This document shows, piece by piece, positions 24,301 through 45,068 of a stretch of DNA of 64,000 bases. Within the stretch, counting starts at the first letter, position 1. The number at the start of each line of letters is the position of its first letter. A program made the translations under genes and the position numbers. Source of the DNA: Erysipelotrichaceae bacterium (GTDB lineage Bacteria; Bacillota_I; Bacilli_A; Erysipelotrichales; Erysipelotrichaceae); the NCBI GenBank assembly GCA_017405785.1, contig JAFQZR010000019.1, forward strand, positions 1 to 64,000, written 5' to 3'. The notes beneath the pieces are model-generated. The model did no database searches and was not told the DNA's origin. It saw nothing but the letters and a program-made list of their open reading frames with translations.

Positions 24301-27300
24301 TTTCTTCAGAACCAACTTAGCTGTATCTCTGACATATGTATTGGTGACTGTTAATTCACCGCTCTGTTCCAGAGTAACCTCTGTAGGATCTGAAATCGTT
24401 GTAGTTAATGTGTAACCTTCAATACCAGCACCCTCTTCAGTTACGCTGTATTCACCTGTCGGAACCTGACCGAAATCATAGATACCGTCAGTGAAATCAT
24501 CGTATGTAACTGTCATTTCACCGTTTGTACCAAAGTCAGCAGGACCGGTTACTGTGAATGTGGTTGTACCAGGAACTTCTACATCGCCTTCGACAACTTT
24601 CTTCAGAACTAAGCCTGCCTGATCTCTTGTATAAGTGTTAGTGACTGTTAATTCTCCTTCGTCACCCTTTTCAAGAGTTAATGCTGCAGTGTCTGTTGAA
24701 GTTGTAGTAACTAATGTGTAGCCTTCAATACCAGCACCTGTTTCTGTAACTGTGTAGTCACCTGTTGGGACATCACCGAAATCATAGCTTAAGTCTTCGT
24801 CCAGCATATCATATGTAACAGTCATTGAACCGTTTGTACCGAAATCATCTGGTCCTGTTACTGTGAATACTACTGTTTCAGGTAATTCAACATCACCTAC
24901 AACAGACTTAACGAGAGTTAACTTAGCTGTATCTCTTGTGTTAGTGATTGTTACTGTGTAACCGTCTTCTACACTTCCGCTAACTGTTCCGACAGTCTTT
25001 GTATAGCCATCAGGTACGGTAGGCTCATCAACTGTATATGCAATAGCTGAACCGTTTTCATAAGCCTGTAAGTCTTCCCAAGTGTAAGTCCATTCGTTCT
25101 CTGCAGTTAACGTCTGAGTGTCCTTGACAGTTTCTCCAACCTTTAACTGAACAGAGATGCTTTCCGGCAGATCATCTTCTTCAACACCTGACCATTCCTT
25201 GGTAACAGTTACGGTTGTTGTTTCATATGTATTGGTTACTGTTGCTTCAACAGTAGCAACCTTGCCTTCAGAAGCAGCTGTGAATGTTCCACCAGTAATG
25301 TTGGATACATATAACTTGCCGTCTGCATCTGTTGATACAGTTACAACGATTGTTGCAGCTGGGTTAGCAGCATAAGTTAAGTCGCCGACAACTGTTCCAC
25401 CGTTTGCTTCAGTAATTGTATAAGTATATGTTCCTGCAGCGATGAATCTTAACTGACCATAAGTATTGGTCTTTGCAGATGTTGTGGCTGTAACTTCTGT
25501 TGTATCAGGCATTGGATTTGTAGTCTCTGAAGCTACCAGTGTTAACTCGAAGCTGTCAGTATCTGTCCAGTCACGACCTGTAATTGCCTTGGTAACCTTG
25601 ATTTCAGCATCAACTGCATCAAGCTTGTTCTCGAATCTGTTGTAATAACGTGTATTCGGTTCTGCAATTGTACCAGTAATCTTATCGTTATCAACAGTTT
25701 CCTTACCTGCTGTGCCGTTTGTTGAGGTGTTCTTTACAAGATAGCCCTGGCTTGTCAGATCCTTACCGTTTGCCTGAACTTCTACGATTGTATAAGTTGT
25801 TCCTGTAGGCAGGTTAGTGAAACGGATGACCTGATTACGGTTCATTGTTACTGTAGCAGTAACAGTTGTTCCGCTTGCAGTTGTAGCGTACTTAGTACCA
25901 CCCCATGTTTCATCAGCTGAGTAACCAGTAGGAGCAAATGCTGCACCTGGGTTAGTTCCGCTGTATTCAGGTAATGTCCATGTATCGCCTTCAGTAGCCG
26001 GAGTGTAGATCCAGTAGTTGATACCGGATACTTCATTGACTGCTGATTCAGGTACTACGAATGTTACTTCGAATGTGAATGTTTCAGCATCAAGCTCTTC
26101 AGCTGTCTTGGTTGACAGAGAAGAATCGATGATCTTAGTGATATCTAATTCAGCTGTCTTGAAGTTGAAGCCTGTTACTGATGCGTTAGTTGTATGAGTT
26201 TCGTCAGCAAGTACACGATACTTGACACCGTCAATTGTATAAACGTTAGAATTCAGCAGTCTGCTCTCATCGAAGACTGAATCAGCTTCAACCAAGTATA
26301 CCAATGTTCCACTGTAAGAACCACCCATTGTGGTATCGGTTAATACCATCGGACGGACTACTTCAGACTGGAATTCCATTGAATAGCCGCTGGCTTGTTC
26401 TTCAGATCCTTCAACGACTGTGTAATAAGTTCCACCTTCACCTGAAGTCTTATTGAATTCATATGTCCATGACTTTCCTTCTTCAAGCTGATAACTGTGG
26501 CCTGTTTCAAGTACTGTGGCATTTCCGTCAGCATCGAACTGAACGATACCCGGAGCGATTTCAACTTCTTCAATCCATTCAAGACCGTTTGTAACGAAGT
26601 ATTCAGCCGGCTTCTGGCCATCGGCATCAGATGCACTGTCAGATGACAGTAACTTCTTGTCCTTTACGATAAGAACATATGGGTTACCATCAGCACCCTT
26701 ATAGTACTCGTTGCCAACTTTCAGGTAGAATTCAACCTTGTTAGCTCTGTTACGAGTATTGATATCGTCTACCCAGTCTTTTCTGATATTCATGGTTTCA
26801 GATTCAAGCAGCATCTGTCCTTCAGACTGAGTGATGCCTGCATCTGTATATGTCTGACCATTGTATGTGTAGGTCGTCTGTAAATGTGTATTTGTCTTCA
26901 GATAGTATGCTACTGATGTTGCACTGTCGATTGCTGACTGTAACTCTGCATCTGTCAGATAAGTACTGCCATTTGATGACCAGCCATTACCTTCGGTGAA
27001 TGTATAAGTTGTTCCGTTAACAACTACTTTCAACTGAGGCTTCTGTTCTGCTGTTACATTAGCGATCTTCTTGACTTCGTTGTTGAGGTCTGTAATCAGG
27101 TCATAAGCTTCCTGACTTGGCCATACCTTGAAGATAAGACGATAAGTAACACCATCTTCCAATACACCGACACTGCTTAAGTCCCATGTAACACCATTGT
27201 CTTCACTGTAAGAAGCACGTGCAGGGTTTTCCCATTCAGTGAAGTTGGTTGGGGTTCCATCTGTGGCATACTGATTAGTCTTGTAGTATTCGAATCCGCC

Positions 27301-29190
27301 TGCTTCACCGGAAACCATAGCACTGACATTTGACAGGCTTGTAACACCGTCGTCAACTGTTGTGTCGGTTGAACCGAAGTTATTAACGATTGTGGAAGCG
27401 ATGTTTGCAAATGCTGCCTTAATTGCCGCATCATCAGCACCGTCAATTGTTGCCGGTCTGTTAGTCTTGCCTGCAGCAGAAGCTGCTGCTGTCAGCATTC
27501 CGTCTAATGTATCATAACCACCTGCAGAAGCACCGCAGAATACACCGTAGAATTCGATGTTGCTGTCAGAATACAGTGATACAGCATGTGGTCTTGCTGC
27601 GTTAACAGCTGCTGTCTGACCATTCCGGACATAACCGGTATAGTTATTTCCGGTTTCACCGGTACCGCGGGCGTTTGGAGAACCGTCTGTTACGAAGATA
27701 ACGTATGTCTTATCTTTGTTGTTTTCTGCCTGGTTCTTTGCCTGAGCAAGCAGTAATGCTCTGTATAATGGGTCTTCCCAGTTAGTACCGTTATTGGTGT
27801 TATCATTAGCACCAATTGGTGTAAGACTTGTACCCTGGATATAAGAATTATAAGTGGTAGCATTGTCTGTCCACTCATCTGTTCCCCACGTATGAATTGG
27901 TGAGTCGATTCTGTTGTAGAAAGAAATCAATGAGTATTCAACATCATTACCGGCATTGTCACCAGTAGACAGTGTTGTAACAAGTAAGTCAATTGCTTCT
28001 CTTGCAACTGTCCATCTGTTATCCCGTTCATCAGCAGCGATCTGGTCATTGCCCATGTTGTAACGCATACTCTTTGTTCTGTCTAAAACGATCAGAACGT
28101 TTGCACCGGTAACTTCTGTTTCAGTCTTAACAGCACCCTTGACGTCAAGAATAATTGAAGATGTACCATCATGGTTATCAACAACGTTCTTGATTGTTGT
28201 CGGTCCTTCAACTTCTTCCGGGCTTGGATTATGAGGTTGGCCTTTTGGTACATATCCAACATAAATGGTTGATCCATCTTCAATAGCAGTAAGTACTACA
28301 GAAGTTGAGTCACCGTCATGAATATGCATTTTCAGCTTGTAAACACCATTATCATTTACGAGAACCGGATCAACAACAACATTTGTTTCACCTTTTTCGT
28401 AATGAGCCTGAGCGAATTCATACCCATCAAAGATGTTGGCTAAGCTGACACTTCCGGCGCCAGTATCGATTGATACGTTGTCAACATCAAACGGTTCGAT
28501 CGTTCCGTCTGTTTTGATTTCACCCCAAACAACCGTTGCAGTCTTAGTAACCTGTTCTTCGCCTTCGCCTTCTTTCCAGGTGATTGCGAATGTTGAGAAG
28601 CTTTCAACTGTGAAATTAAGTTTCAGAGCATCTGCTGCTCCTTCGATCTTCTCAGCGACTACCTCAACTTCTTCCTCTTCGGTGATGTGGGTAACGTTAA
28701 TTGTCTCGACATCAATCTCAGGTGCGATTTCAGCTAATGCCTGTTCATTGAGGGAAATCTGGACATCAACTGAGCCATCAGGTTCAATCTTCTCTCCAGT
28801 CTCAACTACCTTGAAATAGATGTCGTACGCAATCATACCGTCATACTCAGCACCGCTCTCTTTCAGAATATCTTCAGTTTTGAAATATTCTGCACTGCCG
28901 TTGAAAATCGGTTCGACAACGAGTTCGACTTTCTCGGCAAAAGTGCCTTCAGCAACAGTAGCAGTAACTGTAACCGTATAGTTTTTGGCCTTATAAACAG
29001 TAGGCTGCGTTTCTACCAAAGTTACTTCTTCGATTTCTTCGATTTCTTCAATCTCTTCGATTTCCTCTACTGTCGGTTCTTCACCTTCTTCAGCAAAAAC
29101 CTCCGTTCCTAAATAAGGAATGTGAAGTACGCTGAAGCACATGATTACTGACAGTAAAATCTTAAGTAATTTGTTGGTAATCTGTTTCAT
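21334..29190 (-). CDS. Giant wall-anchored vWA / DUF5979-like / Cna-B surface protein (2618 aa)
   Basis: The signal peptide (1-33, ending VFA) is followed by a Glu/Ile microrepeat (EEIEEIEEIEEIEEV) and an N-terminal domain ending TVESFSTFAITW (about 60-205). The von Willebrand A domain begins near residue 365. Its MIDAS reads DRTKS instead of DxSxS, while TNW and TDG are present. A broad beta-rich middle leads into three tandem DUF5979-like repeats (VTGPDDFGTNGSMTV, nucleotides about 24080-24990) and four tandem repeats of the type YDVTVTKIFDIEDLDKIPA (about 22760-24040). Cna-B domains, an FctA-like domain and the sorting signal NPPETG (2577-2582) with helix and KRRKEEELF finish the protein. 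It resembles a pilus-tip adhesin or long stalk crosslinked by internal isopeptide bonds. Its two ends are about 90 percent identical by eye to those of the 2399-aa protein; the interior differs. Confidence 0.9.
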   Translation of the reverse strand: MKQITNKLLKILLSVIMCFSVLHIPYLGTEVFAEEGEEPTVEEIEEIEEIEEIEEVTLVETQPTVYKAKNYTVTVTATVAEGTFAEKVELVVEPIFNGSAEYFKTEDILKESGAEYDGMIAYDIYFKVVETGEKIEPDGSVDVQISLNEQALAEIAPEIDVETINVTHITEEEEVEVVAEKIEGAADALKLNFTVESFSTFAITWKEGEGEEQVTKTATVVWGEIKTDGTIEPFDVDNVSIDTGAGSVSLANIFDGYEFAQAHYEKGETNVVVDPVLVNDNGVYKLKMHIHDGDSTSVVLTAIEDGSTIYVGYVPKGQPHNPSPEEVEGPTTIKNVVDNHDGTSSIILDVKGAVKTETEVTGANVLIVLDRTKSMRYNMGNDQIAADERDNRWTVAREAIDLLVTTLSTGDNAGNDVEYSLISFYNRIDSPIHTWGTDEWTDNATTYNSYIQGTSLTPIGANDNTNNGTNWEDPLYRALLLAQAKNQAENNKDKTYVIFVTDGSPNARGTGETGNNYTGYVRNGQTAAVNAARPHAVSLYSDSNIEFYGVFCGASAGGYDTLDGMLTAAASAAGKTNRPATIDGADDAAIKAAFANIASTIVNNFGSTDTTVDDGVTSLSNVSAMVSGEAGGFEYYKTNQYATDGTPTNFTEWENPARASYSEDNGVTWDLSSVGVLEDGVTYRLIFKVWPSQEAYDLITDLNNEVKKIANVTAEQKPQLKVVVNGTTYTFTEGNGWSSNGSTYLTDAELQSAIDSATSVAYYLKTNTHLQTTYTYNGQTYTDAGITQSEGQMLLESETMNIRKDWVDDINTRNRANKVEFYLKVGNEYYKGADGNPYVLIVKDKKLLSSDSASDADGQKPAEYFVTNGLEWIEEVEIAPGIVQFDADGNATVLETGHSYQLEEGKSWTYEFNKTSGEGGTYYTVVEGSEEQASGYSMEFQSEVVRPMVLTDTTMGGSYSGTLVYLVEADSVFDESRLLNSNVYTIDGVKYRVLADETHTTNASVTGFNFKTAELDITKIIDSSLSTKTAEELDAETFTFEVTFVVPESAVNEVSGINYWIYTPATEGDTWTLPEYSGTNPGAAFAPTGYSADETWGGTKYATTASGTTVTATVTMNRNQVIRFTNLPTGTTYTIVEVQANGKDLTSQGYLVKNTSTNGTAGKETVDNDKITGTIAEPNTRYYNRFENKLDAVDAEIKVTKAITGRDWTDTDSFELTLVASETTNPMPDTTEVTATTSAKTNTYGQLRFIAAGTYTYTITEANGGTVVGDLTYAANPAATIVVTVSTDADGKLYVSNITGGTFTAASEGKVATVEATVTNTYETTTVTVTKEWSGVEEDDLPESISVQLKVGETVKDTQTLTAENEWTYTWEDLQAYENGSAIAYTVDEPTVPDGYTKTVGTVSGSVEDGYTVTITNTRDTAKLTLVKSVVGDVELPETVVFTVTGPDDFGTNGSMTVTYDMLDEDLSYDFGDVPTGDYTVTETGAGIEGYTLVTTTSTDTAALTLEKGDEGELTVTNTYTRDQAGLVLKKVVEGDVEVPGTTTFTVTGPADFGTNGEMTVTYDDFTDGIYDFGQVPTGEYSVTEEGAGIEGYTLTTTISDPTEVTLEQSGELTVTNTYVRDTAKLVLKKVVEGDTTTPGTATFTVTGPDDFGTNGSMTVSYSDFTDGSYDFGQVPTGQYSVTESGAEVTGYSLTTTISDPVTLEKNGEGTLTVTNKYTINTYDVTVTKIFDIEDLDKIPANFEIDITIGTNTDTLTLKDEDVEVSTDGTTYTWTLKGVPYGSVIGAEEKNYEVEGFTWTGTATTASVTVSTDSEKNVITLTNPYTRNNYDLTVTKVFDIDDAEKIPAEFEIDLTYGETTKALKLTDEGVSVSEDKKTYTWKVEAIPYETEVAWEEKGYEITGFTWKGTAKDGKITISASASANILTVSNPYERKVYSVNVEKIFYIDDYSKIPADFYIAYSIDGEAQPNLTLDNAQKVGENEFHWVIENVPFESLIELDEKNYEIPGYRLVSAMFHASEIIVEDGKTISFYNQYEKQSYEITVTKEFTGITNEMIPEDFQISITVAGEEIQVLKVTDEDVKVDGLKYTWVLSEKIPYETEITATESGYEIFGATLSEDAVTEVTLTVDVEDNVMELTNPYTIDTFSVIVNKIWEDNNDQDGFRAKLGATVQLYKQLEGSEEKTKVGDPVTVGTGDDWSNEWKDLPAYEDGKLVTYSVEETYGDETLNYTMTIGDPVQYTGEVSETIEVTNAHEPEQIDIPVEKVWKGDEDFDVRPESVTVELLADGKSIGEEGLTAELNEENEWKFTFEGLDQYADGKEIEYSVKEVEVPAGYKSEAEGDNKGWTITNTFTPVHFDPPVMKVVEGDEADSDDTFTFQFEGLDGAPMPEGAEGQTKTATLKAGEEYEYGDVYLVEPGTYQYKITEVNEGKEGYAYDETEYLLVFEITVDEDNQLAVKLTINGEEADYQNLTPSQFKFVNEYRDYIDVEVVKIWEDNDDEQGLRPEELEVTLYANGEAVETVTLSEENGWAYKWEGLEFSDENFEEISYTVKEDNVPEGYTMSFSQTGNKVTITNTVNPPETGDTNNLKLWAALMALSLTGTVALAGVALKRRKEEELF
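29027..29068 (-). repeat. Nine-base tandem microrepeat coding for (Glu-Glu-Ile)n
   Basis: Within the 2618-aa protein gene, the unit GAAATCGAA recurs about four times with small changes and codes for the EEI tract just after the signal peptide. Gain or loss of units keeps the frame, so it would change only linker length. Confidence 0.7.
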
Positions 29191-29502: not shown

Positions 29503-30030
29503 TTATACAGCCTCGATGAGACCGTAGCCTCCGTTTTCTCTCTTGTAAACGATGGCGATTACTCCGGAATCAACCTGACGGAAGACGAAGAATGTGTGGT
29601 CCAGCAGTTCCATCTGCATGATGGCTTCTTCGACATCCATTTCGCTTACCGCAATTCTCTTGGTTCTTACCGGGATTTCCTCCGGTGCCTTCTCAGCTTC
29701 GGCAGCTGCTGCGAAGTTGACAGCCAGTTTTTCCTTGTGTCTTCTGGACAGACGGGTCTTCTGTCTTCTGACCTGGTCTTCCAGCTTGTCTACTGATTTA
29801 TCAACGGCGTCCCGGATCTCATGATTGATAACTTCGGAACGGAGATATCCTACTTTGGTAGGAATAGTTATTTCCAGTTTGATGTCTTTACCATGCTTCT
29901 TTACTACAGCCTGAGCGGTGGTGTCATCATCGATCAGGATGTACTTGTCAAGGAATGACAGTTTGTTCTCGATCCTCTCGACCATGTCATTACTGACGGA
30001 TAAATCTTTTCCATGTACTTTAACTTTCAT
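29503..30030 (-). CDS. hpf: Ribosome hibernation promoting factor, long form
   Basis: The 175-residue protein has the N-terminal HPF/RaiA ribosome-binding domain (1-105, MKVKVHGKDLSVSNDMVERI) and the short C-terminal dimerisation domain (about 118-175, RIAVSEMDVEEAIMQMELLDHTFFVFR) that defines the long form. Long HPF binds 30S near the decoding site and joins two ribosomes into inactive 100S dimers in stationary phase or stress. The start has AGGAGG five bases upstream. It lies 18 bases after the DUF2779 gene and is probably co-transcribed with it. A small hairpin, AGCCCT/AGGGCT (30042-30056), covers the end of the upstream gene. Length and domains match the family. Confidence 0.95.
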   Translation of the reverse strand: MKVKVHGKDLSVSNDMVERIENKLSFLDKYILIDDDTTAQAVVKKHGKDIKLEITIPTKVGYLRSEVINHEIRDAVDKSVDKLEDQVRRQKTRLSRRHKEKLAVNFAAAAEAEKAPEEIPVRTKRIAVSEMDVEEAIMQMELLDHTFFVFRQVDSGVIAIVYKRENGGYGLIEAV

Positions 30031-31999: not shown

Positions 32000-32284
32000 T
32001 CACTTGAACAAATCCGAATGACTGCCTGTTCTGACCAGATAAAGGATTACAGTTTCATTAGAATACTGATATATTAACAGCCAATCATGATCAATATGTA
32101 ATTCCCTACAGTTCATGTATTCTTTACATGGATGTAATGGGTGATCGCAATACTTTTCAGGTAATACAGCCCCCATCTGAAGTAATTCCAGAACTTCTCT
32201 GAATGAATCAATATTCAATCCTCGTTTTAGGCATTGTTTGAAGTCCTTCTTAAATTGACTGGATCTTCTGATCTCATAGATCAT
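32000..32284 (-). CDS. yafQ: YafQ-family mRNA interferase toxin
   Basis: This 94-residue RelE/ParE-fold toxin is the partner of the DinJ/RelB antitoxin upstream. YafQ binds the ribosome and cuts mRNA at AAA codons. The catalytic set known from E. coli is visible: H48/H51 (CDHPLHPC), H63 and D67 in ELHIDHDW, and H89 and F93 in the end RTGSHSDLFK. The toxin therefore looks intact and active. Its ATG overlaps the antitoxin stop as ATGA, giving translational coupling. It is repressed, as usual for the family, by the antitoxin and the toxin-antitoxin complex at the palindrome upstream. Confidence 0.92.
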   Translation of the reverse strand: MIYEIRRSSQFKKDFKQCLKRGLNIDSFREVLELLQMGAVLPEKYCDHPLHPCKEYMNCRELHIDHDWLLIYQYSNETVILYLVRTGSHSDLFK

Positions 32285-32550
32285 TTCATTAGATCCTCCA
32301 TTAAATCATCGACATCATGAAATGTCTTGTAATTACCTGGATTCATATCCATATAATTAACCTCTTTTATTGCCTGCAGAGTTTCAGCATTTGGCATTTC
32401 CGCTTTCAGTTCAAAAGGAATACTATTCGTTCTGACAACCTGTTTGTAAAACAGCGTTATTGCTATCGTAGGGTTTAAACCCAGATATGAAAAGACCTGT
32501 TCTGCTGCATGTTTTAAATCTTCATCAATTCTTACATTAACACTGGCCAT
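32281..32550 (-). CDS. dinJ: DinJ/RelB-family antitoxin
   Basis: This 89-residue ribbon-helix-helix antitoxin starts MASVNVRIDEDLKHAAEQVF, with the strand VNVRID that contacts operator DNA and the helices to about residue 50 (GLNPTIAITLFYKQV). The C-terminal tail (MNPGNYKTFHDVDDLMEDLMK) should wrap and block YafQ. I chose the ATG at 32550 because GGGAGG lies seven bases upstream; the frame is open for 16 more codons but those would include the promoter. It overlaps the toxin start by four bases. The pair is monocistronic as a unit. Confidence 0.92.
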   Translation of the reverse strand: MASVNVRIDEDLKHAAEQVFSYLGLNPTIAITLFYKQVVRTNSIPFELKAEMPNAETLQAIKEVNYMDMNPGNYKTFHDVDDLMEDLMK

Positions 32551-32575
32551 GGATATTCCTCCCTTAACTAACTGA

Positions 32576-32594
32576 ATTATAACACATTTGTGTT
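32576..32594 (-). promoter_or_regulatory. Promoter -10 and operator of the DinJ/YafQ pair
   Basis: The -10 TATAAT (32581-32576) abuts and overlaps the palindrome AACACA-TT-TGTGTT (32581-32594). This is the expected position for autorepression by an RHH antitoxin. The -35 is poor. Confidence 0.65.
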
Positions 32595-32801
32595 GCATTT
32601 TGCGATAATATATTTCATTTTCACTTATTATTGCGAGTGTTTATGTTATTAGTATTAACACAAAAATAAATTTTTCGTTATCTGAACATTTAATACATAC
32701 CGTCTTTTTGATATATTCAGAAAATACCTTTATATTTCGGTTTATCTATGTTACTTAATAGCGATAATTCCATCAGATTCCTTGTGCCTTCTGGCAAAAA
32801 A

Positions 32802-35137: not shown

Positions 35138-35797
35138 TTACACTAGTTTTGGTCTTACAATATTCAATACTGCGTCCGTCACTTCATCGATCGTCATCTC
35201 AGATGTATCGATCTCAATGGCATCAGGCGCTTTTTTCAGCGGTGATTCCTTGCGGTGGGTATCCTGATAGTCCCTCTCAACCAGTTCTTCCTTCAGTTCA
35301 CGGAGATTGCATTTGATGCCTCTCTTCTGGTTTTCCAGATATCTTCTTCTGGCTCTGGTCTCAACAGAGGCAACCAGGAAGATCTTGACCTCGGCATCCG
35401 GTAATACTACCGTTCCGATGTCACGGCCGTCCATGACATATCCCTTGTCCTTGGCAATTTCCTGCTGTAGGGCAACCAGATACTTTCTGACGATTTTTCT
35501 GGTTGATACGTTAGAAGCCATCATGGAGATCTCATCTGTTCTGATGGCCTTGCTGACATCTTCCCCGTCCAGCAGAACTCCGCCTTCCGGTGTGAAGTCA
35601 ATAGTCGTATTCTCCAGCAGTTCCTTCATCGCCTCATCCTTGTTGTAGTCAGCACCGGTACGTACTACCTTCAGGGCAACGCAGCGGTACATGGCACCGG
35701 TATCGAGGTGTTTGTATTCGAGCTCCTTGCAGAGTTCCTTGGCTATGGTGCTTTTACCGGAAGCACTCGGACCGTCTATTGCAATATTGATAGCCAT
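35138..35797 (-). CDS. cmk: Cytidylate kinase
   Basis: The 219-residue protein phosphorylates CMP and dCMP with ATP. The P-loop GPSASGKST is at 8-16, LDTGAMYR binds nucleotide, and the DGRDIGTVVLPDA and RARRRYLENQKRG segments form the NMP-binding and LID parts. Its ATG shares one base with the TGA stop of the large acidic protein gene (TGATG), so translation of the two is probably coupled. No separate Shine-Dalgarno site is needed. The cmk-der-gpsA order is conserved in many Bacillota. Confidence 0.96.
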   Translation of the reverse strand: MAINIAIDGPSASGKSTIAKELCKELEYKHLDTGAMYRCVALKVVRTGADYNKDEAMKELLENTTIDFTPEGGVLLDGEDVSKAIRTDEISMMASNVSTRKIVRKYLVALQQEIAKDKGYVMDGRDIGTVVLPDAEVKIFLVASVETRARRRYLENQKRGIKCNLRELKEELVERDYQDTHRKESPLKKAPDAIEIDTSEMTIDEVTDAVLNIVRPKLV

Positions 35798-38700
35798 CAG
35801 ATTAAACCCCTTTCCTTGGCGAAGAAGAAGCCCATGATGAACAGGATGACAAACAGAGCAATGATCAGCAATGTCAGGATGACATTGAGGATCCTGTTGG
35901 TCCTGCTCATGTTATTTGATACTTCATTCAGGTCGTTTTCATATTCGGAAACCTGAAGCTTCAGCTGCTGAGTTGTCTCAAACAGTTCATCTCTGGCCTT
36001 GCGTTCCTTTTCAATCTGGGCGGTCAGGACATTGATGTGTTCCTGCTCCCGGGTCTTCTGCATCATCGGTGCAGGATAACCCTGGGTAGTATCATATGAG
36101 GTTTCCTCATCGTACAGCATCTCTCCATCCTCAATAGGCTTCATGTCGGCGATTGCCTTCATGATTGAAGAGTTGGTCTGCTCGATCTCATCTTCGCTGT
36201 ATTCTTCTGCTATCTTTACCGGCTTTTCAACCTTCTTGGTAACAGGTTCTTCATCTTCTTCTTCCTGGTAGTCATCGATTTCCTCATCGCTGACACCGAA
36301 GAAACTCTGGAACAGAGATTTCTTTTCCGGCTTTACTGAACCGGTTGCGGTCTTTTCTTCGACTGCCGGTTCTGTCTGATCTCTCATGAGTTCTTCCTTC
36401 TTGAGCTCAGACATTATGTTGATCTGGGTATCTTCGACATTTCTGATACCCTTTTCGATATTGCGTTCCTTCAGTTCGTTGAGGATGTCTTCGATGTTGT
36501 CTTCGGCATCATCGTCTAACATGAAGGTTCCTTCTTCATCAGTTAATTCTCTTCTGACAGCAGCAGGTTCCTCAGCAGGTTTCTGCATTACCGGTTCCTC
36601 TTCCTTGACTTCCGGCATCTTGACTTCCGGTATTTCATCGAATAAAGTCGGTTCACTGTAATTCTGCTGTACTTCAGGTTCTTCCTGAGGGAACGGAATG
36701 CTCTCATTGATATTGGCGAAAGCGCTGTGAATTGCTTCTTCAACATCATAGTCATCCTCTTCTTCAGGCTCTTCTTCCTGTACAGGTTCTTCAGCTGGCT
36801 GTTCAGATTCAACATCACCGAACGGTCTTAAACCTGCGAAGGCACTGTGAATTGCCTCTTCGACGTCGTAATCGTCTTCTTCCTCTTCCGGCTGAACTTC
36901 TTCCTGTTCAACGAACTGTTCCCATTCAGGTCTTTCCTCAGCTATTGGTTCTTCAGGCTGCTGTTCACAGACTGCTTCAACTTCTGGTTCCTCGATTACA
37001 GGTTCTTCAACTGGAACTTCTTCTGCAGGAACTTCTTCAACAGGCTGTTCTTCTTCATCTAAGGAGCCGATTCTGGCGAAGGCACTGTGAATTGCTTCTT
37101 CAACATCGTAATCGTCTTCCTCTTCAGTTTCTTCTTCCTGTACTGGTTCTTCTGCAGGTAACTCTTCAGCAACAGGTTCAGCACAGATTTCTTCAGGCTG
37201 TTCCTCTTCAGCTGGTTCGTGAATTACAGGCATTTCTTCGGTAACGAATCTGTCGATGTTGTCTTCAAAATCAAAGTTGATTTCATCTACTTCGATGTCA
37301 GGCATCTCGAACTCAGCGATCTGTTCTGCTGGTTCAGATGGTTCTTCTGCAGGCTGTTGTTCACAGACTGCTTCAACTTCTGGTTCCTCAATTACAGGTT
37401 CTTCAGCCTGAGGTTCTTCCTCAACATAAATCTCTTCCTGTACAGGCTCTTCAACTGGAACTTCTTCAGCAGGAGCTTCTTCAACTGACTGTTCTTCGTC
37501 GCCTAAGATTCCGATGCTGGCGAAAGCGCTGTGAATTGCTTCTTCGACATCGTATTCGTCATCTTCTTCAGGCTCTTCTTCTGCCGGAGCTTCCTCGTAT
37601 TCAACTTCAGTTATTTCTTCTTCAGCCGGTTCTTCAAAGCATTCTTCAGCAACCTGTTCTTCCGTAAATACATCTTCAACAGGTTCCTCATAGATCTCTT
37701 CTTCAGGCTGTTCTTCTGTAACAGGCTCTTCGGCAGGAACTTCTTCAACAACAGGTTCTTCGCATACAGGTTCTTCAACCTGTTCTTCTGCTGCGCCCTC
37801 ATAGTCTTCAACGACTACTTCAGCTTCCTCAACAGGAACTTCTTCCTGTACAGGTTCTTCAAATCTTTCTGCTTCAACAGGCTGTTCTTCAGGCTGCTCT
37901 ACTGTTAATGCAGGCTCCTGGAAGACTTCTTCGTGAATCAGTTCTTCAACATATGGTTCTTCTTCCGGTTCTTCGAATCTGTCAGCTTCAAGCGGCTCAG
38001 GAATGAATGGTTCCTGTACAGGCCGTTCTTCGATGATCGGTTCAATGAAGATTTCCTGAGGTTGTTCTTCAACAACAGGTTCTTCAATGAACGGAATAAA
38101 CGGAGCAACTGTTTCCTGCTGTACTTCAGGTAATCCAAGATCACAGTTCTCTTCAATGACTGGAGCTTCTACATGCTCTTCATTAGTGTTCAGGGCAGCG
38201 AATGCTTCACTCAGCTGTTCTTCCGGATTCTCGGCAGGCTGTTCTTCAACAACAGGTTCTTCAAAGCGCTCTTCTTCCTGAACCTCTTCAACAGGTTCCT
38301 CTACCGGCTGTTCTTCATAAACTTCTTCATAGACCGGTTCTTCAGCCTGAGGTTCTTCCTCGACATAAATCTCTTCCTGTTCAGGCTCTTCTGCCGGGAT
38401 TTCTTCAGCAGGCTGCTCTTCCTGGAATTCTTCTGTTGGTTCTTCAACTGTTGTCTCTTCTTCTGTAGACTCTTCGAATGGTTCTTCTTCCCGAACCTCT
38501 TCAGCAGGTTCTTCTACTGGCTGTTCTTCAAAGACTTCTTCATAAACAGGCTCTTCAACAGATGGTTCTTCCTCGGTCGGTTCCTCCTGTACATAGATTT
38601 CTTCCTGTACAGGTTCTTCTGCCGGGATTTCTTCAGCAGGCTGCTCTTCAGCTGCAGGTTCTTCAGGAACTTCAACAGCTGGCTCTTCCCACTTAGGGAA

Positions 38701-40704
38701 TTCGAAGCCGTGAGGCTCTTCTCCGACATGTGTCAGGTTCTCCTGAACATAAGCATCGATATCAAAGTCATTGAAGTCTGCGAATTCTTCGTCTTCTTCA
38801 TCAATATCGTTTTCTCTGAATTCCTCAAATCTTGGTAATTCAAGGTCAGAGTAGTCAATATTCTCTTCTTCTTCGGTATGAGGCAGTTCAAATGTTGTCT
38901 TAGCTTCTTCAATTACCGGTTCTTCTTCAGTTGGTTCTTCAGCTACAGGTTCTTCAACTGCAGGCTCTTCAAAGTGTTCTTCTTCGATCAGTTCTTCCTG
39001 AACTTCTTCTTCAGGCTCTTCAAAGGCTTCTTCAGCGAATTCTTCAACCGGTTCCTCAGTGAACTGTTCCGGTTCTTCTTCCGGCTGAGGTTCGGTAACT
39101 ACCGTTTCCTCAACGAAATCGGCCCATTCAGGCTGTTCTTCAGCAACAGGCTCTGGTGCTGGAACTTCTTCAACGACTGGCTCTTCAGCTGCTTCGGTAT
39201 CAATGGTCTCAACCATGTCTTCCCAAGGCATTCTGCCATCATCGATCCACTCAGGTTCAGCTTCCACAACCGGTGTTTCGTCATATGGTTCGCTTATAAT
39301 CTCTTCTGCTACAGGTTCTTCCGGAATCTGTTCTTCAACAGGTTCTTCTTCTGATACCGGTTCAGCAGCAGGTTCCTCAACGAATTCATCAACGTCATTT
39401 TCCGTAAATGAATCTGCCGGTTCCTGATTTAATTCATCAACAGGTTCCTCATTCAGAAGTTCATCAAATAAAGGATTATATTCTTCTTCATAAGGCTCTG
39501 TCTGATATTCTTCAACAGAGAAAGGCTTCTCTTCAGCGTACTGAATGTCATTGTCAGCTACTAAGATATCTCCTTCCACGGTTTCTTCTTCCTCTGCAGG
39601 CTCTCTGGACCGCAGATAATCTTCAACTGTATGATATCCTTCATTTACCAGTCCGGCTGTAGGTCCGAATACTGAAGAGATCTTCGGCATTGCGTTCTCT
39701 TCTCTGACATATTCCTGTTCCGGTTCATCATCGAATACCGGTTCCTGGAAATAGTCAGGATTTTCGAAATAGATTCCCTCTTCAGATTCTTCAGCAGCCT
39801 CTTCTGAAACAGGTTCTTCAGTCTGTTCTTCAACAGGTTCTTCGATGCCGATGCTGGCGAAGGCATTTCTTATAGCCTCCTGTACATCATAATCATCGTC
39901 ATCATCTTCATCAGATACTTCTTCTTCCGGCTGAGGTTCTTCAACAACTTCCTCTGCCGGCTCTTCTTCAACGTAGATTTCTTCTTCTGCAGGAGTTTCT
40001 TCAATGACAGGTTCTTCATACTGAACTTCTTCAGCTGGTTCTTCTTCCTGTGGTTCAAACTGAGGAATCTCAGGCTCTTCTGACTGAGGTTCATCAACTA
40101 TCAGTTCCTGATATGTTTCCCGTTCCGGAAGATCATCGATGTCGATTCCTTCCAGGATATCCTCTACTTCTTCATCGGTATGGATTGGTCTTATTTCAAT
40201 GGTATCTCTCAGATCCTGAGGCACGGTTTCCTCAGGTAGTACAATTTCTTCTTCACGAGCGAATGCAGGCAGGTCTTCTTCACTCTGGACAACTGTTTCT
40301 TCAGGAATGATCACTTCCTGTTCAGGAGCTTCAACGGTTTCTTCAACAACTTCTTGTGGCTGTACTTCAGGTTCCGGTTCACTTTCAGCTTCAGGCTGTT
40401 TTTCTTCTGCATGAGGCATGACAAAAGAGTCCAGCAGTTCCTCTAAGGTTGGAATGTCATCTACCGGCGTTTCATCTGTTGTGAAACTGCCGAACTGTGC
40501 ATCCAGCGTCTTGAGGAATTCCTCCTGTTCCTTCAGCATCTTCTCATAATCATCAGAGATTGATCTGCTGCTGTCTCTGTATGAAGAGCTGAATCCCTTT
40601 CTGTTGAATTCTCCGGTATTGTCGTCAAAGATGGAAGTCTCCTGTTCTTCCGATCCGTCATTGTTTTCCAGGTCCGTTACCCTGTCAAAGTCTCTGTTAT
40701 CCAT
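35797..40704 (-). CDS. Uncharacterised 1635-aa acidic Glu/Pro/Val-rich protein with repeated helix motifs and C-terminal membrane anchor
   Basis: I do not recognise a family. There is no signal peptide. Residues 1-110 are mixed (MDNRDFDRVTDLENNDGSEE...; DDYEKMLKEQEEFLKTLDAQ). Residues about 110-1400 are an extremely acidic array of EEPVEEP-type units, likely extended and disordered. Embedded are five copies of DDYDVxEAIxxAFAxxG (about 268, 1046, 1195, 1276 and 1316), plus DFNDFDIDAYVQEN (about 650) and FDFEDNIDRFVTEEM (about 1150). After 1400 come helical segments (EDILNELKERNIEKG; KKSLFQSFFGVSDEE), a coiled coil (about 1540-1600) and one membrane helix (LNVILTLLIIALFVILFIMGFFF), with only about seven residues beyond. 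The layout suggests a tail-anchored cytoplasmic scaffold; function is unknown. AGGAGG is five bases upstream. It follows efp by 24 bases and overlaps cmk by one base, so it is made with the operon. Confidence 0.85.
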   Translation of the reverse strand: MDNRDFDRVTDLENNDGSEEQETSIFDDNTGEFNRKGFSSSYRDSSRSISDDYEKMLKEQEEFLKTLDAQFGSFTTDETPVDDIPTLEELLDSFVMPHAEEKQPEAESEPEPEVQPQEVVEETVEAPEQEVIIPEETVVQSEEDLPAFAREEEIVLPEETVPQDLRDTIEIRPIHTDEEVEDILEGIDIDDLPERETYQELIVDEPQSEEPEIPQFEPQEEEPAEEVQYEEPVIEETPAEEEIYVEEEPAEEVVEEPQPEEEVSDEDDDDDYDVQEAIRNAFASIGIEEPVEEQTEEPVSEEAAEESEEGIYFENPDYFQEPVFDDEPEQEYVREENAMPKISSVFGPTAGLVNEGYHTVEDYLRSREPAEEEETVEGDILVADNDIQYAEEKPFSVEEYQTEPYEEEYNPLFDELLNEEPVDELNQEPADSFTENDVDEFVEEPAAEPVSEEEPVEEQIPEEPVAEEIISEPYDETPVVEAEPEWIDDGRMPWEDMVETIDTEAAEEPVVEEVPAPEPVAEEQPEWADFVEETVVTEPQPEEEPEQFTEEPVEEFAEEAFEEPEEEVQEELIEEEHFEEPAVEEPVAEEPTEEEPVIEEAKTTFELPHTEEEENIDYSDLELPRFEEFRENDIDEEDEEFADFNDFDIDAYVQENLTHVGEEPHGFEFPKWEEPAVEVPEEPAAEEQPAEEIPAEEPVQEEIYVQEEPTEEEPSVEEPVYEEVFEEQPVEEPAEEVREEEPFEESTEEETTVEEPTEEFQEEQPAEEIPAEEPEQEEIYVEEEPQAEEPVYEEVYEEQPVEEPVEEVQEEERFEEPVVEEQPAENPEEQLSEAFAALNTNEEHVEAPVIEENCDLGLPEVQQETVAPFIPFIEEPVVEEQPQEIFIEPIIEERPVQEPFIPEPLEADRFEEPEEEPYVEELIHEEVFQEPALTVEQPEEQPVEAERFEEPVQEEVPVEEAEVVVEDYEGAAEEQVEEPVCEEPVVEEVPAEEPVTEEQPEEEIYEEPVEDVFTEEQVAEECFEEPAEEEITEVEYEEAPAEEEPEEDDEYDVEEAIHSAFASIGILGDEEQSVEEAPAEEVPVEEPVQEEIYVEEEPQAEEPVIEEPEVEAVCEQQPAEEPSEPAEQIAEFEMPDIEVDEINFDFEDNIDRFVTEEMPVIHEPAEEEQPEEICAEPVAEELPAEEPVQEEETEEEDDYDVEEAIHSAFARIGSLDEEEQPVEEVPAEEVPVEEPVIEEPEVEAVCEQQPEEPIAEERPEWEQFVEQEEVQPEEEEDDYDVEEAIHSAFAGLRPFGDVESEQPAEEPVQEEEPEEEDDYDVEEAIHSAFANINESIPFPQEEPEVQQNYSEPTLFDEIPEVKMPEVKEEEPVMQKPAEEPAAVRRELTDEEGTFMLDDDAEDNIEDILNELKERNIEKGIRNVEDTQINIMSELKKEELMRDQTEPAVEEKTATGSVKPEKKSLFQSFFGVSDEEIDDYQEEEDEEPVTKKVEKPVKIAEEYSEDEIEQTNSSIMKAIADMKPIEDGEMLYDEETSYDTTQGYPAPMMQKTREQEHINVLTAQIEKERKARDELFETTQQLKLQVSEYENDLNEVSNNMSRTNRILNVILTLLIIALFVILFIMGFFFAKERGLI

Positions 40705-40728: not shown

Positions 40729-41286
40729 TTATGCTCTGCCGCAGTACTTTCCGTCGATTGTTGAGATTATCACCATTTCATCCTGCTCTATGAATAATGG
40801 TACTTTTATCTGCCATCCTGTTTCCAGAACAGCGTTCTTGGTGGCGGCAGTAGCCGTATCGCCCTTTACTGCCTGTTCTGCTTCAACTACCTGCAGGACT
40901 ACCTTGTCAGGCAGCTGAATGCCCAGGATCTCGCCTTCATAGCTTGTGATCATGACATTGTCGTTTGGCTTCAGGAAGTTCATTTCCCATTCCAGACGGC
41001 TCTTAGGAATCTCGATCTGGTCATAAGTTGTGGTATCCATGAAGACCAGTTCTTCTCCGGCGTCATACAGATATTGCATCTCGCTCTTTTCAATATTGGC
41101 CTGTTCGACCTTGTCACCACCGGTAAAAACGACGTCCTTGATGGTTCCGGTTCTCATGTCCTTGGCATGAGCCTTAACAACCATCTGTCTCATCGCAGTC
41201 TTGTTCAGTGATGTGCTTAACGTCAGATACAGGTTACCTTCATAAATGAAAGTGGTTCCCGGTTTGAGATCGTTAACAATAATCAT
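40729..41286 (-). CDS. efp: Elongation factor P with atypical tip loop
   Basis: The 185-residue protein has the three beta-barrels of EF-P: KOW-like N-terminus (MIIVNDLKPGTTFIYEGNLY), OB domain 2 (IEIPKSRLEWEMNFLKPND), and the C-terminal OB domain ending ETGWQIKVPLFIEQDEMVIISTIDGKYCGRA. EF-P rescues ribosomes stalled on polyproline. The domain I tip, normally PGKG with a modified Lys or Arg, reads SLNKTAMRQM here, placing Met at position 32 by length; the usual target residue is missing. It heads the operon with the acidic protein, cmk, der and gpsA. The acidic protein is rich in Glu-Pro but has few consecutive prolines. Confidence 0.94.
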   Translation of the reverse strand: MIIVNDLKPGTTFIYEGNLYLTLSTSLNKTAMRQMVVKAHAKDMRTGTIKDVVFTGGDKVEQANIEKSEMQYLYDAGEELVFMDTTTYDQIEIPKSRLEWEMNFLKPNDNVMITSYEGEILGIQLPDKVVLQVVEAEQAVKGDTATAATKNAVLETGWQIKVPLFIEQDEMVIISTIDGKYCGRA

Positions 41287-41567: not shown

Positions 41568-41915
41568 TCACTGGTAATCAATGACCTCATCTTCGATGTC
41601 ATCAAACACCAGAGTACGGACACGCAGGTGTCCGTTACCCCGGATGGTAATGGTGCAGGAAAGATCCTGGTATCTGAAACTGACGGAATAGCCGTCAACA
41701 TAAACAGTCTCATCAGATTCACTGTAACAGCGGTAACTCTGAATGGCTCTTTTGATGGCTAGCACTTCGATCCAGTTCATTTTGCGGAAGACTTCCCTTT
41801 CACTTTGAAACCGGTAATATCTGGACATCTCACTGAAGATCCCGTGAGACACCATCAGACAGACTGCCAGCACCGTCAGCAGATACAGGCTTACAAAACC
41901 CTTACTGCTCTTCAC
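41568..41915 (-). CDS. comGG: ComGG-like competence pseudopilin
   Basis: This 115-residue small protein starts at GTG (41915), with AGGT upstream. Its N-terminus, MKSSKG followed by FVSLYLLTVLAVCLMVSHG, resembles a type IV prepilin leader and hydrophobic helix, but without the Glu at position +5, as is common for ComGG. The body is poorly conserved. The assignment rests mainly on position as the last gene of the comG operon and on size. It overlaps the previous gene by 14 bases. ComGG is a minor pseudopilin needed for assembly of the DNA-uptake pilus. Confidence 0.65.
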   Translation of the reverse strand: MKSSKGFVSLYLLTVLAVCLMVSHGIFSEMSRYYRFQSEREVFRKMNWIEVLAIKRAIQSYRCYSESDETVYVDGYSVSFRYQDLSCTITIRGNGHLRVRTLVFDDIEDEVIDYQ

Positions 41916-42360
41916 AGTAACCTATCGGAAAGCGGAGCTGTTTTCCCTGACGGGAAAAACTCAGGTATATCACGGTGTCCTCAACCTCAAAGAAGGCTTC
42001 ACTGATGCCGTGAATGAAATCCTCGCTGCCCGGCTGAGAAAGGAGCTTGTCATTGACGATGTGCAGGATGAAGGTATCACCGTTTTTATGGTAAACGATG
42101 CTTTCATAATTCACTTCTTCAATGTCATGCAGTGCCAGTTCCAGCTGCAGCTGATATAGCCCTATCTCATCCTGATAGAATACTTCACTGCTTTTTCTGA
42201 CCTTCACTAAAGTGCTGATCAGCGGTACCGTTATTCCCGACAGAAAGACAAGCACCGTTAAGGCAAGCATCAGTTCGGTAAGAGTGTATCCTCTGTTACG
42301 ATCGGATCCTGCGGTATTTCGATGTGAGTGTAAATACTGTATCTGTCCGGATCGTTCCAT
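41902..42360 (-). CDS. comGF: ComGF-like competence pseudopilin
   Basis: This 152-residue protein has a prepilin cleavage motif NRG followed by YTLTELMLALTVLVFLSGI, with Glu at +5. The ATG at 42360 gives a 24-residue leader, longer than usual, but has AGGAG ten bases upstream and no better in-frame start was seen. The body (FYQDEIGLYQLQLELALHDIEEVNYES) and the end FPIGYCEEQ fit ComGF. It overlaps the upstream comGE frame by 91 bases, which is a lot for this operon. It is a minor pseudopilin of the competence pilus. Confidence 0.75.
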   Translation of the reverse strand: MERSGQIQYLHSHRNTAGSDRNRGYTLTELMLALTVLVFLSGITVPLISTLVKVRKSSEVFYQDEIGLYQLQLELALHDIEEVNYESIVYHKNGDTFILHIVNDKLLSQPGSEDFIHGISEAFFEVEDTVIYLSFSRQGKQLRFPIGYCEEQ

Positions 42361-42503
42361 ATGTCATACATCTCCTGCTGGCTGAAATCATAATGAAAGC
42401 TTCCGCGTGCCATCGACATCATAAGAATCAGTGAAACAGCTGCCATGACAATGTAGATGCCCAAAAGAGTATCCAGCAGCACGAAACCTTTATTCCCGCA
42501 CAT
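42270..42503 (-). CDS. comGE: ComGE-like competence pseudopilin
   Basis: At 77 residues it is small. The N-terminus MCGNKG followed by FVLLDTLLGIYIVMAAVSLILM looks like a prepilin leader and helix, with Asp where Glu is usual at +5. The remaining 45 residues carry no recognised motif. The assignment is by position between comGD and comGF. The ATG at 42503 overlaps comGD by 14 bases and has AAGGA just upstream. Confidence 0.65.
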   Translation of the reverse strand: MCGNKGFVLLDTLLGIYIVMAAVSLILMMSMARGSFHYDFSQQEMYDIWNDPDRYSIYTHIEIPQDPIVTEDTLLPN

Positions 42504-42783
42504 AGATCCTTCCCGTTCCTAAGGAAATGATAACGGCAACACCGTCGATGTAAACAGTGTCCCGCATTCGCACATTTCCCTTTCGGTTGAATCCGGTATA
42601 ACGGTTTTCCCTGTGCTGACAGTCAACCACCGCCTGATACTGATCCATGACGATGTCATTTATGGCATCCTGGGTTTCCTGTCTGATGGCCAGAGGCCTT
42701 ATGCGGACAGAAGTCAGAGTCATGCAGATGGCTATGACGGTAACTGCCAGCAGGCATTCAACAGCGGTATAACCCCTATTCAC
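42490..42783 (-). CDS. comGD: ComGD-like competence pseudopilin
   Basis: I start this 97-residue protein at GTG (42783), giving a very short leader, (M)NRG, then YTAVECLLAVTVIAICMTLTSV with Glu at +5. GGAG lies nine bases upstream, inside the end of comGC, which it overlaps by eight bases. The open frame extends further upstream to 42909 but that part overlaps comGC and carries no prepilin signal. Minor pseudopilin of the DNA-uptake pilus; the leader is processed by the prepilin peptidase ComC, not in this window. Confidence 0.75.
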   Translation of the reverse strand: MNRGYTAVECLLAVTVIAICMTLTSVRIRPLAIRQETQDAINDIVMDQYQAVVDCQHRENRYTGFNRKGNVRMRDTVYIDGVAVIISLGTGRIYVRE

Positions 42784-43069
42784 CGTGAGCTTCTCCGTTA
42801 ACAATGGATATACGTGTTCCGTTTGGACAGTAACACTGGTTTTCCGTGATGTAACCGCCTGCGACCAGCTCGCTGACATCCCCGGGTTTCTCGCCCTTTT
42901 CCAGATCATACAGCAGGATCTGACCGTTGATCAGTTCCACTAATGCTGAACAACCGACCTGCCCGATGATCTGTTTCTTCTGAGCAATATTGGGGACAGT
43001 CACCAGGACGATCAGTGAGATTACCGTCAGAACCAGAATCATTTCCAATATCGTAAAGCCTCTTTTCAA
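42776..43069 (-). CDS. comGC: ComGC major competence pilin
   Basis: This 97-residue protein is the main subunit of the competence pilus. The leader MKRG precedes FTILEMILVLTVISLIVLVTVPNI, with the processing site and Glu at +5. Downstream cysteines (QVGCSALVEL; NQCYCPNGT) could form the disulfide known for B. subtilis ComGC. It starts at TTG (43069), with GGAG eight bases upstream; an ATG-ATG just before it is in another frame. The helix is the best-conserved part of the family and makes this the firmest assignment among the small comG genes. Confidence 0.92.
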   Translation of the reverse strand: MKRGFTILEMILVLTVISLIVLVTVPNIAQKKQIIGQVGCSALVELINGQILLYDLEKGEKPGDVSELVAGGYITENQCYCPNGTRISIVNGEAHGE

Positions 43070-43084
43070 AGCATCATCTCCTTC

Positions 43085-44068
43085 CTAGAACTGCTGCAGC
43101 ATCTCCAGCGGCAGCAACAATACCTGATAAGCCAGAACCACCGTCACCGCCACAAACAGATAACATACGCCCTGAAATACCAGAGATATCCTTTTTATCG
43201 CAGCGTTTAAAGTAACTTCCACCATGTCAATGTAGTCATCCAGAGCCGACGGGAAATCATCCCCCTTCAGTCCCAATAGACACAGGGAATGAAATCGCGG
43301 ATCAAAGTAATCCATGTCCAGACTTTTCTCAAAGTCCTCTCCGGCTTCCAGCTTTTCATCAAAGTGAAAGGCCAGTAATCTTACCAGCGGATCCCGGGTC
43401 CCGTAACGGATGATCTTCAAAGCGGCAAGAATGCTGACGCCGTTATCAAGAAGGATCTTCAGTTTTCTGGCCATAGCACAGGTGACAATAACTCTTAACC
43501 GGCCGTCCCGTTTATGGCGGTGCAGAAATACCCATAACAGCTCCTGCTTTCCGGTAATGGTGACGTACCGGTATGACAGTCCGATACCAGCTGCCAGTAT
43601 CAGAAAACTGTTCTGAATCAGTGCAATGATCCTGAACCGCAGCAGGATGGAAGCTGTTTTCCGGTATCCTGTATCCAGTGATCTGATCATCACCGGCAAT
43701 ACCACCTTAGTAAACAGCAACAGTACACCCATGCTGCAGATCATCAGTATCACCTGATAGGAAACACCCGAAACAAACTTCTTCCTGCTTTCTCTGACAA
43801 TACGTAATTCTTCGGCAGTGACCTTTATGCTCTGGCCTAAGGGCAGATACCGGACGTAGAACCTGAGTTTTCTTTCAAAGCCGTTATCTGACAGCACATC
43901 TGCCAGCTGACCGCCGTTTTCCAGATGTTCGCAGATCCTCTGTACACCGGTATCATCAGGCATGGTTTTTCTGAGATATTCAAAAGCTGTTCTGACACTG
44001 TAATTACGTGACAGTAATCTCGCAATGATCAGCCAGCTGTATTCAGAAAGACCTTTCCCGTTCATCAT
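43085..44068 (-). CDS. comGB: ComGB-like type II secretion/type IV pilus inner-membrane protein
   Basis: This 327-residue polytopic membrane protein of the GspF/PilC family has two GspF domains. It has cytoplasmic segments with the SVRTAFEYLRKTMPDDTG and LLDNGVSILAALKIIRYG helices, membrane segments near 108-130, 155-175 and 300-325, and an end DVVLAY...LLLPLEMLQQF type. It forms the platform on which ComGA polymerises pilins. The start (ATG 44068) overlaps comGA by 26 bases, with a second ATG one codon later. Slightly short for the family. Confidence 0.9.
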   Translation of the reverse strand: MMNGKGLSEYSWLIIARLLSRNYSVRTAFEYLRKTMPDDTGVQRICEHLENGGQLADVLSDNGFERKLRFYVRYLPLGQSIKVTAEELRIVRESRKKFVSGVSYQVILMICSMGVLLLFTKVVLPVMIRSLDTGYRKTASILLRFRIIALIQNSFLILAAGIGLSYRYVTITGKQELLWVFLHRHKRDGRLRVIVTCAMARKLKILLDNGVSILAALKIIRYGTRDPLVRLLAFHFDEKLEAGEDFEKSLDMDYFDPRFHSLCLLGLKGDDFPSALDDYIDMVEVTLNAAIKRISLVFQGVCYLFVAVTVVLAYQVLLLPLEMLQQF

Positions 44069-45005
44069 AGATGCCCTTCTTCACACCTTCATCGATCTTT
44101 TTCTCCAGGCGCTGTTCGCATACCGTTCTGCCTTCCATGGCGTCAGATAATTCCTGTTTCTGCAGAATATCATACACGCAGCGGTAACCCTTTCCGTTTT
44201 TCAGCCTCACCAGACGCTGGGAAACGATGCCTATGGCAGTATCCTTGAGATCCTGCTGGCTGACACCCAGTTCCACCAAGCGGTTAACGGCGGAAAAGCT
44301 GTTACGGGCATGCAGGGAACTCATTACCAACGTGCCGGTAAGAGCTGCCCTGATGCACATCTTTGCTGTCTTTTCATCTCTGATCTCACCGATCATGATG
44401 ATATCGGGATTATGACGCAGTATCTGTCTGATCCCTTCATCATAGCCAAAACCGGTTCGGTCATTGACTTCCAGCTGAACAATGTTATCCTGAACCACCT
44501 CAATGGGATCTTCGATTGAATAGATCGTCCTGCCTTTGGCCATTTTCAACAGCGAGTAAAGCGTTGTGGTCTTGCCGCTGCCGGTCAGACCGGTAAACAG
44601 AATGAGCCCTGATCTCTTTCTTAGCCATCCGGTAAAGGTTTCCCGGACATCCCTGTCATCGGTAAGCTGATCAAGCGTCAGTCCGTAGTGACAGTTAAGA
44701 ATGCGCAGAACACCGTTTTTCTGATGAGTGCTCTGGATGATGGCGAAGCGGAAATCATAGAACTGGCCTTGAAAGAAATAACTGAAGGCTCCTGACTGCG
44801 GTCGGTTAAGACAGGTAATGTCCATGTTGGCCATGTACTGCAGATAGTTGAACAGTCTGACATCATCGCCTGTGGCTTCAACGGGAATCAGTCCGTTTAC
44901 CCCACGCAGACGGATAGTGACAGTATTATCCGCAATGGTGAAATGCATGTCCGTGGCTTTCTGATACAAGGCTGTTTCCAGCAGTTCTTCAAATCTCTGT
45001 TCCAT
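44043..45005 (-). CDS. comGA: ComGA-like competence pilus assembly ATPase
   Basis: This 320-residue cytoplasmic secretion ATPase has Walker A FTGLTGSGKTTT (about 130-141), the Asp box YSIEDPIE, Walker B DIIMIGEIRD and the His box TGTLVMSSLHARN, all intact. It powers assembly of the competence pilus and is the first gene of the seven-gene comG operon. I start at ATG 45005 (MEQRFEELLETALYQKATDMHF); the frame opens earlier at a TTG inside the preceding terminator, which is not credible. The ribosome-binding site is modest (AGGGAAAG). Regulation by a competence factor is expected but no box was identified. Confidence 0.93.
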   Translation of the reverse strand: MEQRFEELLETALYQKATDMHFTIADNTVTIRLRGVNGLIPVEATGDDVRLFNYLQYMANMDITCLNRPQSGAFSYFFQGQFYDFRFAIIQSTHQKNGVLRILNCHYGLTLDQLTDDRDVRETFTGWLRKRSGLILFTGLTGSGKTTTLYSLLKMAKGRTIYSIEDPIEVVQDNIVQLEVNDRTGFGYDEGIRQILRHNPDIIMIGEIRDEKTAKMCIRAALTGTLVMSSLHARNSFSAVNRLVELGVSQQDLKDTAIGIVSQRLVRLKNGKGYRCVYDILQKQELSDAMEGRTVCEQRLEKKIDEGVKKGIYDERERSF

Positions 45006-45068
45006 ATCTTTCCCTGCAGTACTTAATTGACGGAAACCAGCGGTATTCCTACCAAACCGCAAAAAAAA

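Follow-up and report, generated by a model that had tools for sequence, protein, structure and literature searches.

The locus and its neighbours

In a window of 64,000 nucleotides of genomic DNA from an Erysipelotrichaceae bacterium, an open reading frame of 1635 codons runs on the minus strand from its ATG at 40704 to a TGA at 35797. A preliminary description of this DNA had recognized the frame; its length is confirmed here and its strand is corrected to minus. The genes and features at the locus are as follows.

40729..41286, minus strand, efp, the immediate upstream neighbour in the window genus
35797..40704, minus strand, tail-anchored acidic protein of 1635 aa (the window protein), from the open reading frame and family match
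35795..35799, minus strand, TGATG stop/start overlap with cmk
35138..35797, minus strand, cmk, the invariant downstream neighbour

The frame belongs to a tight run of genes in the order efp, this frame, cmk, der and gpsA. It is separated from efp by about 24 nt, its stop codon overlaps the start of cmk as TGATG, and the gaps of cmk-der and der-gpsA are 9 nt and 3 nt, respectively. The sole terminator-like site between genes on the minus strand was found after gpsA (32820-32802). Both the coupling to cmk and the common operon with cmk and der, as proposed in the preliminary description, are supported by this arrangement. Downstream of gpsA lies a gene for a RelB-type antitoxin (PF04221; window 32281-32598, minus strand). 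Directly upstream of efp, and at the same position in relatives, is a Com-type pseudopilus operon encoding a T2SSE ATPase, T2SSF and an N-methylated pilin (window 41568-45062, minus strand). A further minus-strand gene (window 21334-29190) encodes a surface protein of 2618 aa that combines VWA, Cna_B, DUF5979 and FctA domains with a PETGD sorting signal and is probably a giant pilus or adhesin protein.

Architecture of the window protein

The following segments were recognized along the window protein.

40660..40704, minus strand, N-terminus MDNRDFDRVTDLENN, a degraded remnant of the family [S/T]Rxx[K/R]xxxLR helix, from alignments
40489..40572, minus strand, genus-conserved block SDDYEKMLKEQEEFLKTLDAQFG, within residues 45-72, with a similar block in the g26 proteins L095-L097
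36565..40419, minus strand, acidic low-complexity arm, residues 96-1380, from composition
39634..39696, minus strand, genus-conserved block NAMPKISSVFGPTAGLVNEGY, residues 337-357, in 7 of nine genus genomes
36385..36510, minus strand, family block DAEDNIEDILNELKERNIEKGIRNVEDTQINIMSELKKEELM, residues 1399-1440, the equivalent of NEYLDEFIxEVKQYNxxKGxRxxEDTQxNIL
35890..36069, minus strand, coiled coil, residues 1546-1605, from alignment and AlphaFold helix
35824..35892, minus strand, C-terminal transmembrane helix, about residues 1605-1627, from hydropathy and AlphaFold

The arm is composed of 34% E, 12% P and 10% V, and carries a net charge of -478, in agreement with the acidic stretch of about 1300 residues described before. 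By Kyte-Doolittle analysis, a single hydrophobic segment was detected, with a value of 3.2 at residue 1605, and since nothing else in the protein exceeded 0.5, a signal peptide is absent, as had been stated. The EVKQYN...DTQxNIL block is represented by ELKERNIEKGIRNVEDTQINIM within residues 1399-1440. AlphaFold modelling with 11 homologues gave one unbroken helix for residues 1546-1631, including both the coiled coil and the transmembrane segment (pLDDT ~90), and low confidence for the rest of the chain. The cytoplasmic arm and C-terminal membrane anchor of the preliminary description are supported.

An order-wide family upstream of cmk

The preliminary description knew of no family with this design and took the repeated 17-residue motif as its defining feature. 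Neither view is supported: homologues with the anchor but without the motif stand before cmk across the order, other genus members with an assembled gene among them, and this is an observation that the preliminary description had itself named as refuting its proposal. With the C-terminal 250 residues as query, homologues were found in 26 of 60 relatives. A family profile made from 15 short homologues then matched in 157 of the 187 good genomes of the order, the scope of this survey, and the window protein itself matches the family by profile and homology over the coiled coil and the C-terminal transmembrane helix. In the loci read, the family gene adjoins cmk-der on the upstream side. This position was also seen in 9 of the 12 loci of the order's second family, whose gene before cmk again encodes SRVxKYxxLREGI at the N-terminus, YNTRxDILNKI and the tail anchor.

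The core of the window protein matched nothing above cut-off in Pfam or NCBIfam, the sub-threshold matches being of the generic coiled-coil or transmembrane type. Among these, Synaptobrevin (Pfam PF00957) was rejected as a generic resemblance, with E 0.02 and 14.9 bits against the curated cut-off of 26.4 bits. A PDB search gave no relative, nor was any match found by a plasmid search. This order-wide tail-anchored family is unannotated. It deserves attention because most genomes of the order, which comprises gut and animal-associated bacteria, encode it beside essential genes.

The constant elements of the family are the N-terminal helix, the NEYLDEFI-to-NIL block given above, the coiled coil and the transmembrane helix with a short C-terminal tail; the T of DTQ is invariant in the family alignments. 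Most open frames are of about 210-430 aa. Members in the window genus are of 832, 983, 1429, 1512 and 1635 aa, and other expanded members were detected in genus g26 (818-993 aa), g19 (866 aa), and g3, g20, g49 and g50 (about 350-550 aa). The window protein is the largest sampled member, and across the family the proteins, with a disordered arm between ends that stay fixed, range from about 210 to 1635 residues. The giant scaffold is an extreme and partly rewired member of this family, and not a new category.

The arm differs among family members in length, composition and sequence, being E-rich, Q/Y/P-rich or S/Y-rich depending on the member, with a net charge per residue between -0.03 and -0.35. 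In one member (G013; L028 4215-5492) the arm is S/Y/P/G-rich (SQPAYNSQPAYNSQ) and not acidic, indicating that arm chemistry is not conserved. A comparison of the sister species G006 with G007 gave 11 synonymous codon differences and no non-synonymous one over the coiled coil and transmembrane helix; over the arm it gave 142 synonymous and 197 non-synonymous differences, plus indels. This wide variation and rapid change would be expected if the arm were a spacer or acidic brush, with selection on length and charge and with the motifs as passengers of segmental duplication; indeed, some linker segments flanking the motifs are recent, near-identical DNA duplications. Within the window genus, however, two further blocks are conserved: EYEKMLKEQEEFLKSL lies close to the N-terminus and LPKVSSVFGPTxGIVNxGY within the arm. 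Conservation of the SSVFGP and EQEEFLKxL sequences is difficult to reconcile with a mere spacer. The motif copies described below argue in the same direction, and we consider this explanation very unlikely.

The 17-residue motif copies

Five copies of the motif were located in the arm.

39847..39897, minus strand, motif copy 1, DDYDVQEAIRNAFASIG, residues 270-286
37510..37560, minus strand, motif copy 2, DEYDVEEAIHSAFASIG, residues 1049-1065, predicted helix
37066..37116, minus strand, motif copy 3, DDYDVEEAIHSAFARIG, residues 1197-1213, predicted helix
36826..36876, minus strand, motif copy 4, DDYDVEEAIHSAFAGLR, residues 1277-1293, predicted helix
36706..36756, minus strand, motif copy 5, DDYDVEEAIHSAFANIN, residues 1317-1333, predicted helix

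All five copies reported for DDYDVxEAIxxAFAxxG were thus found again, but its final G was not common to them, the terminal 'xxG' being present in three of the five. The common core is 14 residues long, D[DE]YDV[EQ]EAI[HR][SN]AFA. The copies scored 46-51 bits, as against 13 bits for the best of 200 shuffles. Copies 2 to 5 lie within 285 residues, and copy 1 is isolated. By alignment-free AlphaFold prediction of residues 1030-1345, which was of low confidence, helices were formed at copies 2 to 5 and nowhere else.

The 14-residue core is the same peptide in copies 3 to 5; the changes between them are at least 9 synonymous and 0 non-synonymous. For all five copies, at least 15 synonymous changes were counted against 4 non-synonymous ones, where the expected synonymous fraction is 0.18 (P ~2e-8). 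The five copies are under purifying selection, and therefore they are not neutral repeats, the contrary case that the preliminary description had set against its own proposal. Divergence in DNA and not in peptide is likewise at variance with motifs carried along as passengers.

From the sequence and the predicted helices, the copies may represent short docking helices for a partner. The preliminary description proposed a multivalent docking scaffold in which each helix binds one copy of the partner; on this reading, such docking would be the main job of the protein. The motifs are short, linear and repeated in tandem along a flexible arm that is anchored, they are near-identical as peptides in spite of their synonymous changes, and they are predicted as the only helices in their region, all of which agrees with such a role. 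Among nine genomes of the genus, however, the 17-residue motif (peptide DDYDVEEAIHSAFASIG) was found only in the window genome; G003 and G005 lay outside this comparison, cmk being missing from both assemblies. Nor was it present in any other family member scanned, including congeners of 832-1512 aa, and homologues of 210-350 aa retain everything but the motif. As other family members are without it, the motif is at most a species-specific addition, and multivalent docking is unlikely to be the main job of the protein.

An origin of the motif from the family 'SIxxAIAxM' helix before the coiled coil was considered and is not supported, since EETEAIASALASM of L021 scored 21.8, whereas the 95th percentile of the shuffles was 26.0. 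No match to the 17-residue motif was found in the PDB. The hpf product (hibernation-promoting factor, window 29503-30030, minus strand) contains SEMDVEEAIMQMEL, with DVEEAI in common with the motif; this is probably a chance resemblance between helix starts.

N-terminal helix and its likeness to GpsB-binding motifs

The sequence [S/T]Rxx[K/R]xxx[LVF][RHYQ] was found at the N-terminus of 59 of the 61 homologues with a complete N-terminus, and its R is invariant in the alignments. The two exceptions are the window protein (MDNRDFDRVTDLEN), which is without the N-terminal helix motif, and the protein of the congener G002 (MMAEEVREKKQE), in which R-x-x-K is kept (VREKKQ) and the losses are confined to the S cap and the LR that follows. 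As the motif is degraded only in these two, the window protein is a derived member of the family.

The GpsB-binding motif is (S/T/N)-R-x-x-R-(R/K), in which S caps the helix and the first R enters a groove of Tyr25, Asp31 and Asp35 (PMC6335420, PMC11062636). The N-terminal motif of the family resembles this sequence, except that position 5 is usually K instead of R and position 6 is usually Y instead of R/K. Along the chain it is located far from the membrane, unlike that of the B. subtilis clients. In the aligned GpsB proteins of the order, Y25, D31 and D35, with the same numbering as the B. subtilis residues, are invariant. These observations suggest docking to GpsB by the family N-terminus. 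The N-termini of PBP1, used as a control for decay of SRxxR, contained no SRxxR in either group, which made this control uninformative.

Presence and loss of gpsB

The gpsB gene was detected in 179 of the 187 good genomes. In the window genome (G000) it was found neither at the locus nor elsewhere in the assembly. In sister species, gpsB is located between yebC and pgsA, near cinA-recA-rny; in G000, G002 and G005, the yebC-pgsA locus is intact and contiguous, and gpsB is absent from it. For G002 (75% complete, ~1 Mb assembled; L023, L188) this holds at an intact yebC-pgsA junction. At the gpsB site of the sister species, the window genome has yebC and pgsA separated by a gene for a zinc-ribbon/SH3 protein of 335 aa (L187 8504-10193, C6). 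In the gpsB-less clade of G000 and G005, the N-terminal region of RecA is altered (KKTLGEDAIMWGNETVNVDVDAISSG vs EKQYGKGSIMRLGDAAALEVDAIPTG; L187 11275-12279 and L189 5297-6316), and its identity to congeners is only about 73%, as against 92% among those congeners.

G000 and G002 encode the two proteins that lack the N-terminal motif, and all four gpsB-positive genus members with the N-terminus read keep it. By genome count, with relatedness ignored, the co-loss of motif and gpsB has P = 0.0005. Three metagenome-assembled genomes (G103, G163 and G167) keep the N-terminal motif and gave no gpsB match, for which incompleteness may be the explanation; if they are taken as true gpsB losses, P becomes 0.005, again with relatedness ignored. 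In the tree, G000 and G005 were joined firmly and G002 was placed without support (bootstrap 47), so that the co-loss represents one or two events, and gpsB may have been lost twice.

Such a small number of events leaves room for a target of the N-terminal helix other than GpsB, for instance DivIVA, FtsZ or membrane lipid, the co-loss with gpsB then being coincidental. DivIVA is also present in most genus members, and basic amphipathic helices can bind lipid. The G000 lineage, however, retains DivIVA and has lost the motif, and an S/T helix cap with an invariant R is the signature of GpsB clients (PMC6335420). We therefore regard a different target as rather unlikely.

Proposed role of the family

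Taking the sequence comparisons and the analogy to FacZ together, we propose, as a reading with about an even chance of being correct, that the family consists of GpsB-docked tail-anchored adaptors, FacZ-like with reversed topology, and that the window lineage lost GpsB and gained docking helices. The free N-terminal helix would dock into the acidic groove of GpsB, the coiled coil would mediate probable oligomerization, and the adaptor would link the division and cell-wall machinery that GpsB organizes with a coiled-coil complex bound to the membrane. Both gpsB and the N-terminal motif have been lost in the window lineage, and the five selected, species-specific amphipathic helices on the very long acidic arm would represent candidate docking sites. 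In the window species, these five new helices and the blocks that are still conserved presumably serve other partners. That the five-helix array on its tethered acidic arm, after loss of GpsB, recruits cell-wall or division proteins, possibly as a membrane-bound condensate, is a long shot.

Should the GpsB-docked adaptor proposal be correct, GpsB clients would include tail-anchored proteins that carry their docking site at the tip of a disordered tether. The lineage that lost gpsB would then be a natural experiment in the decay and emergence of docking motifs. The family thereby gains a testable candidate partner, GpsB.

Comparison with known systems

ZipA of E. coli resembles the family in having a charged, P/Q-rich unstructured linker by which a module that binds a division protein is tethered to the inner membrane; it differs in the N-terminal anchor, the folded FtsZ-binding domain and the unrelated sequence. 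Synaptobrevin (PF00957) shares a tail anchor preceded by a coiled-coil helix, at a score below the curated cut-off.

FacZ/YtxG of S. aureus and B. subtilis has a single membrane helix and a membrane-proximal coiled coil; its cytoplasmic tail is disordered and carries, toward the distal end, an RxxR-type motif that binds GpsB (PMC10914604). FacZ is, however, an 18-kDa protein with a positively charged tail, an N-terminal transmembrane helix and the motif near the C-terminus, whereas the family has a C-terminal transmembrane helix and adds the EVKQYN/DTQ block, and some of its genera also have a huge acidic arm. As the transmembrane helix of the window protein is C-terminal, the family is not counted as part of FacZ/YtxG, and is compared with it by architecture only. 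YpbE and YrrS/RagB, the GpsB clients of B. subtilis, are single-pass membrane proteins with an N-terminal cytoplasmic SRxxR motif (SRVERR in YpbE) (PMC6335420, PMC12457691). In these proteins the motif lies near the membrane and is accompanied by extracellular domains (LysM in YpbE), whereas members of the present family are wholly cytoplasmic with a C-terminal membrane helix.
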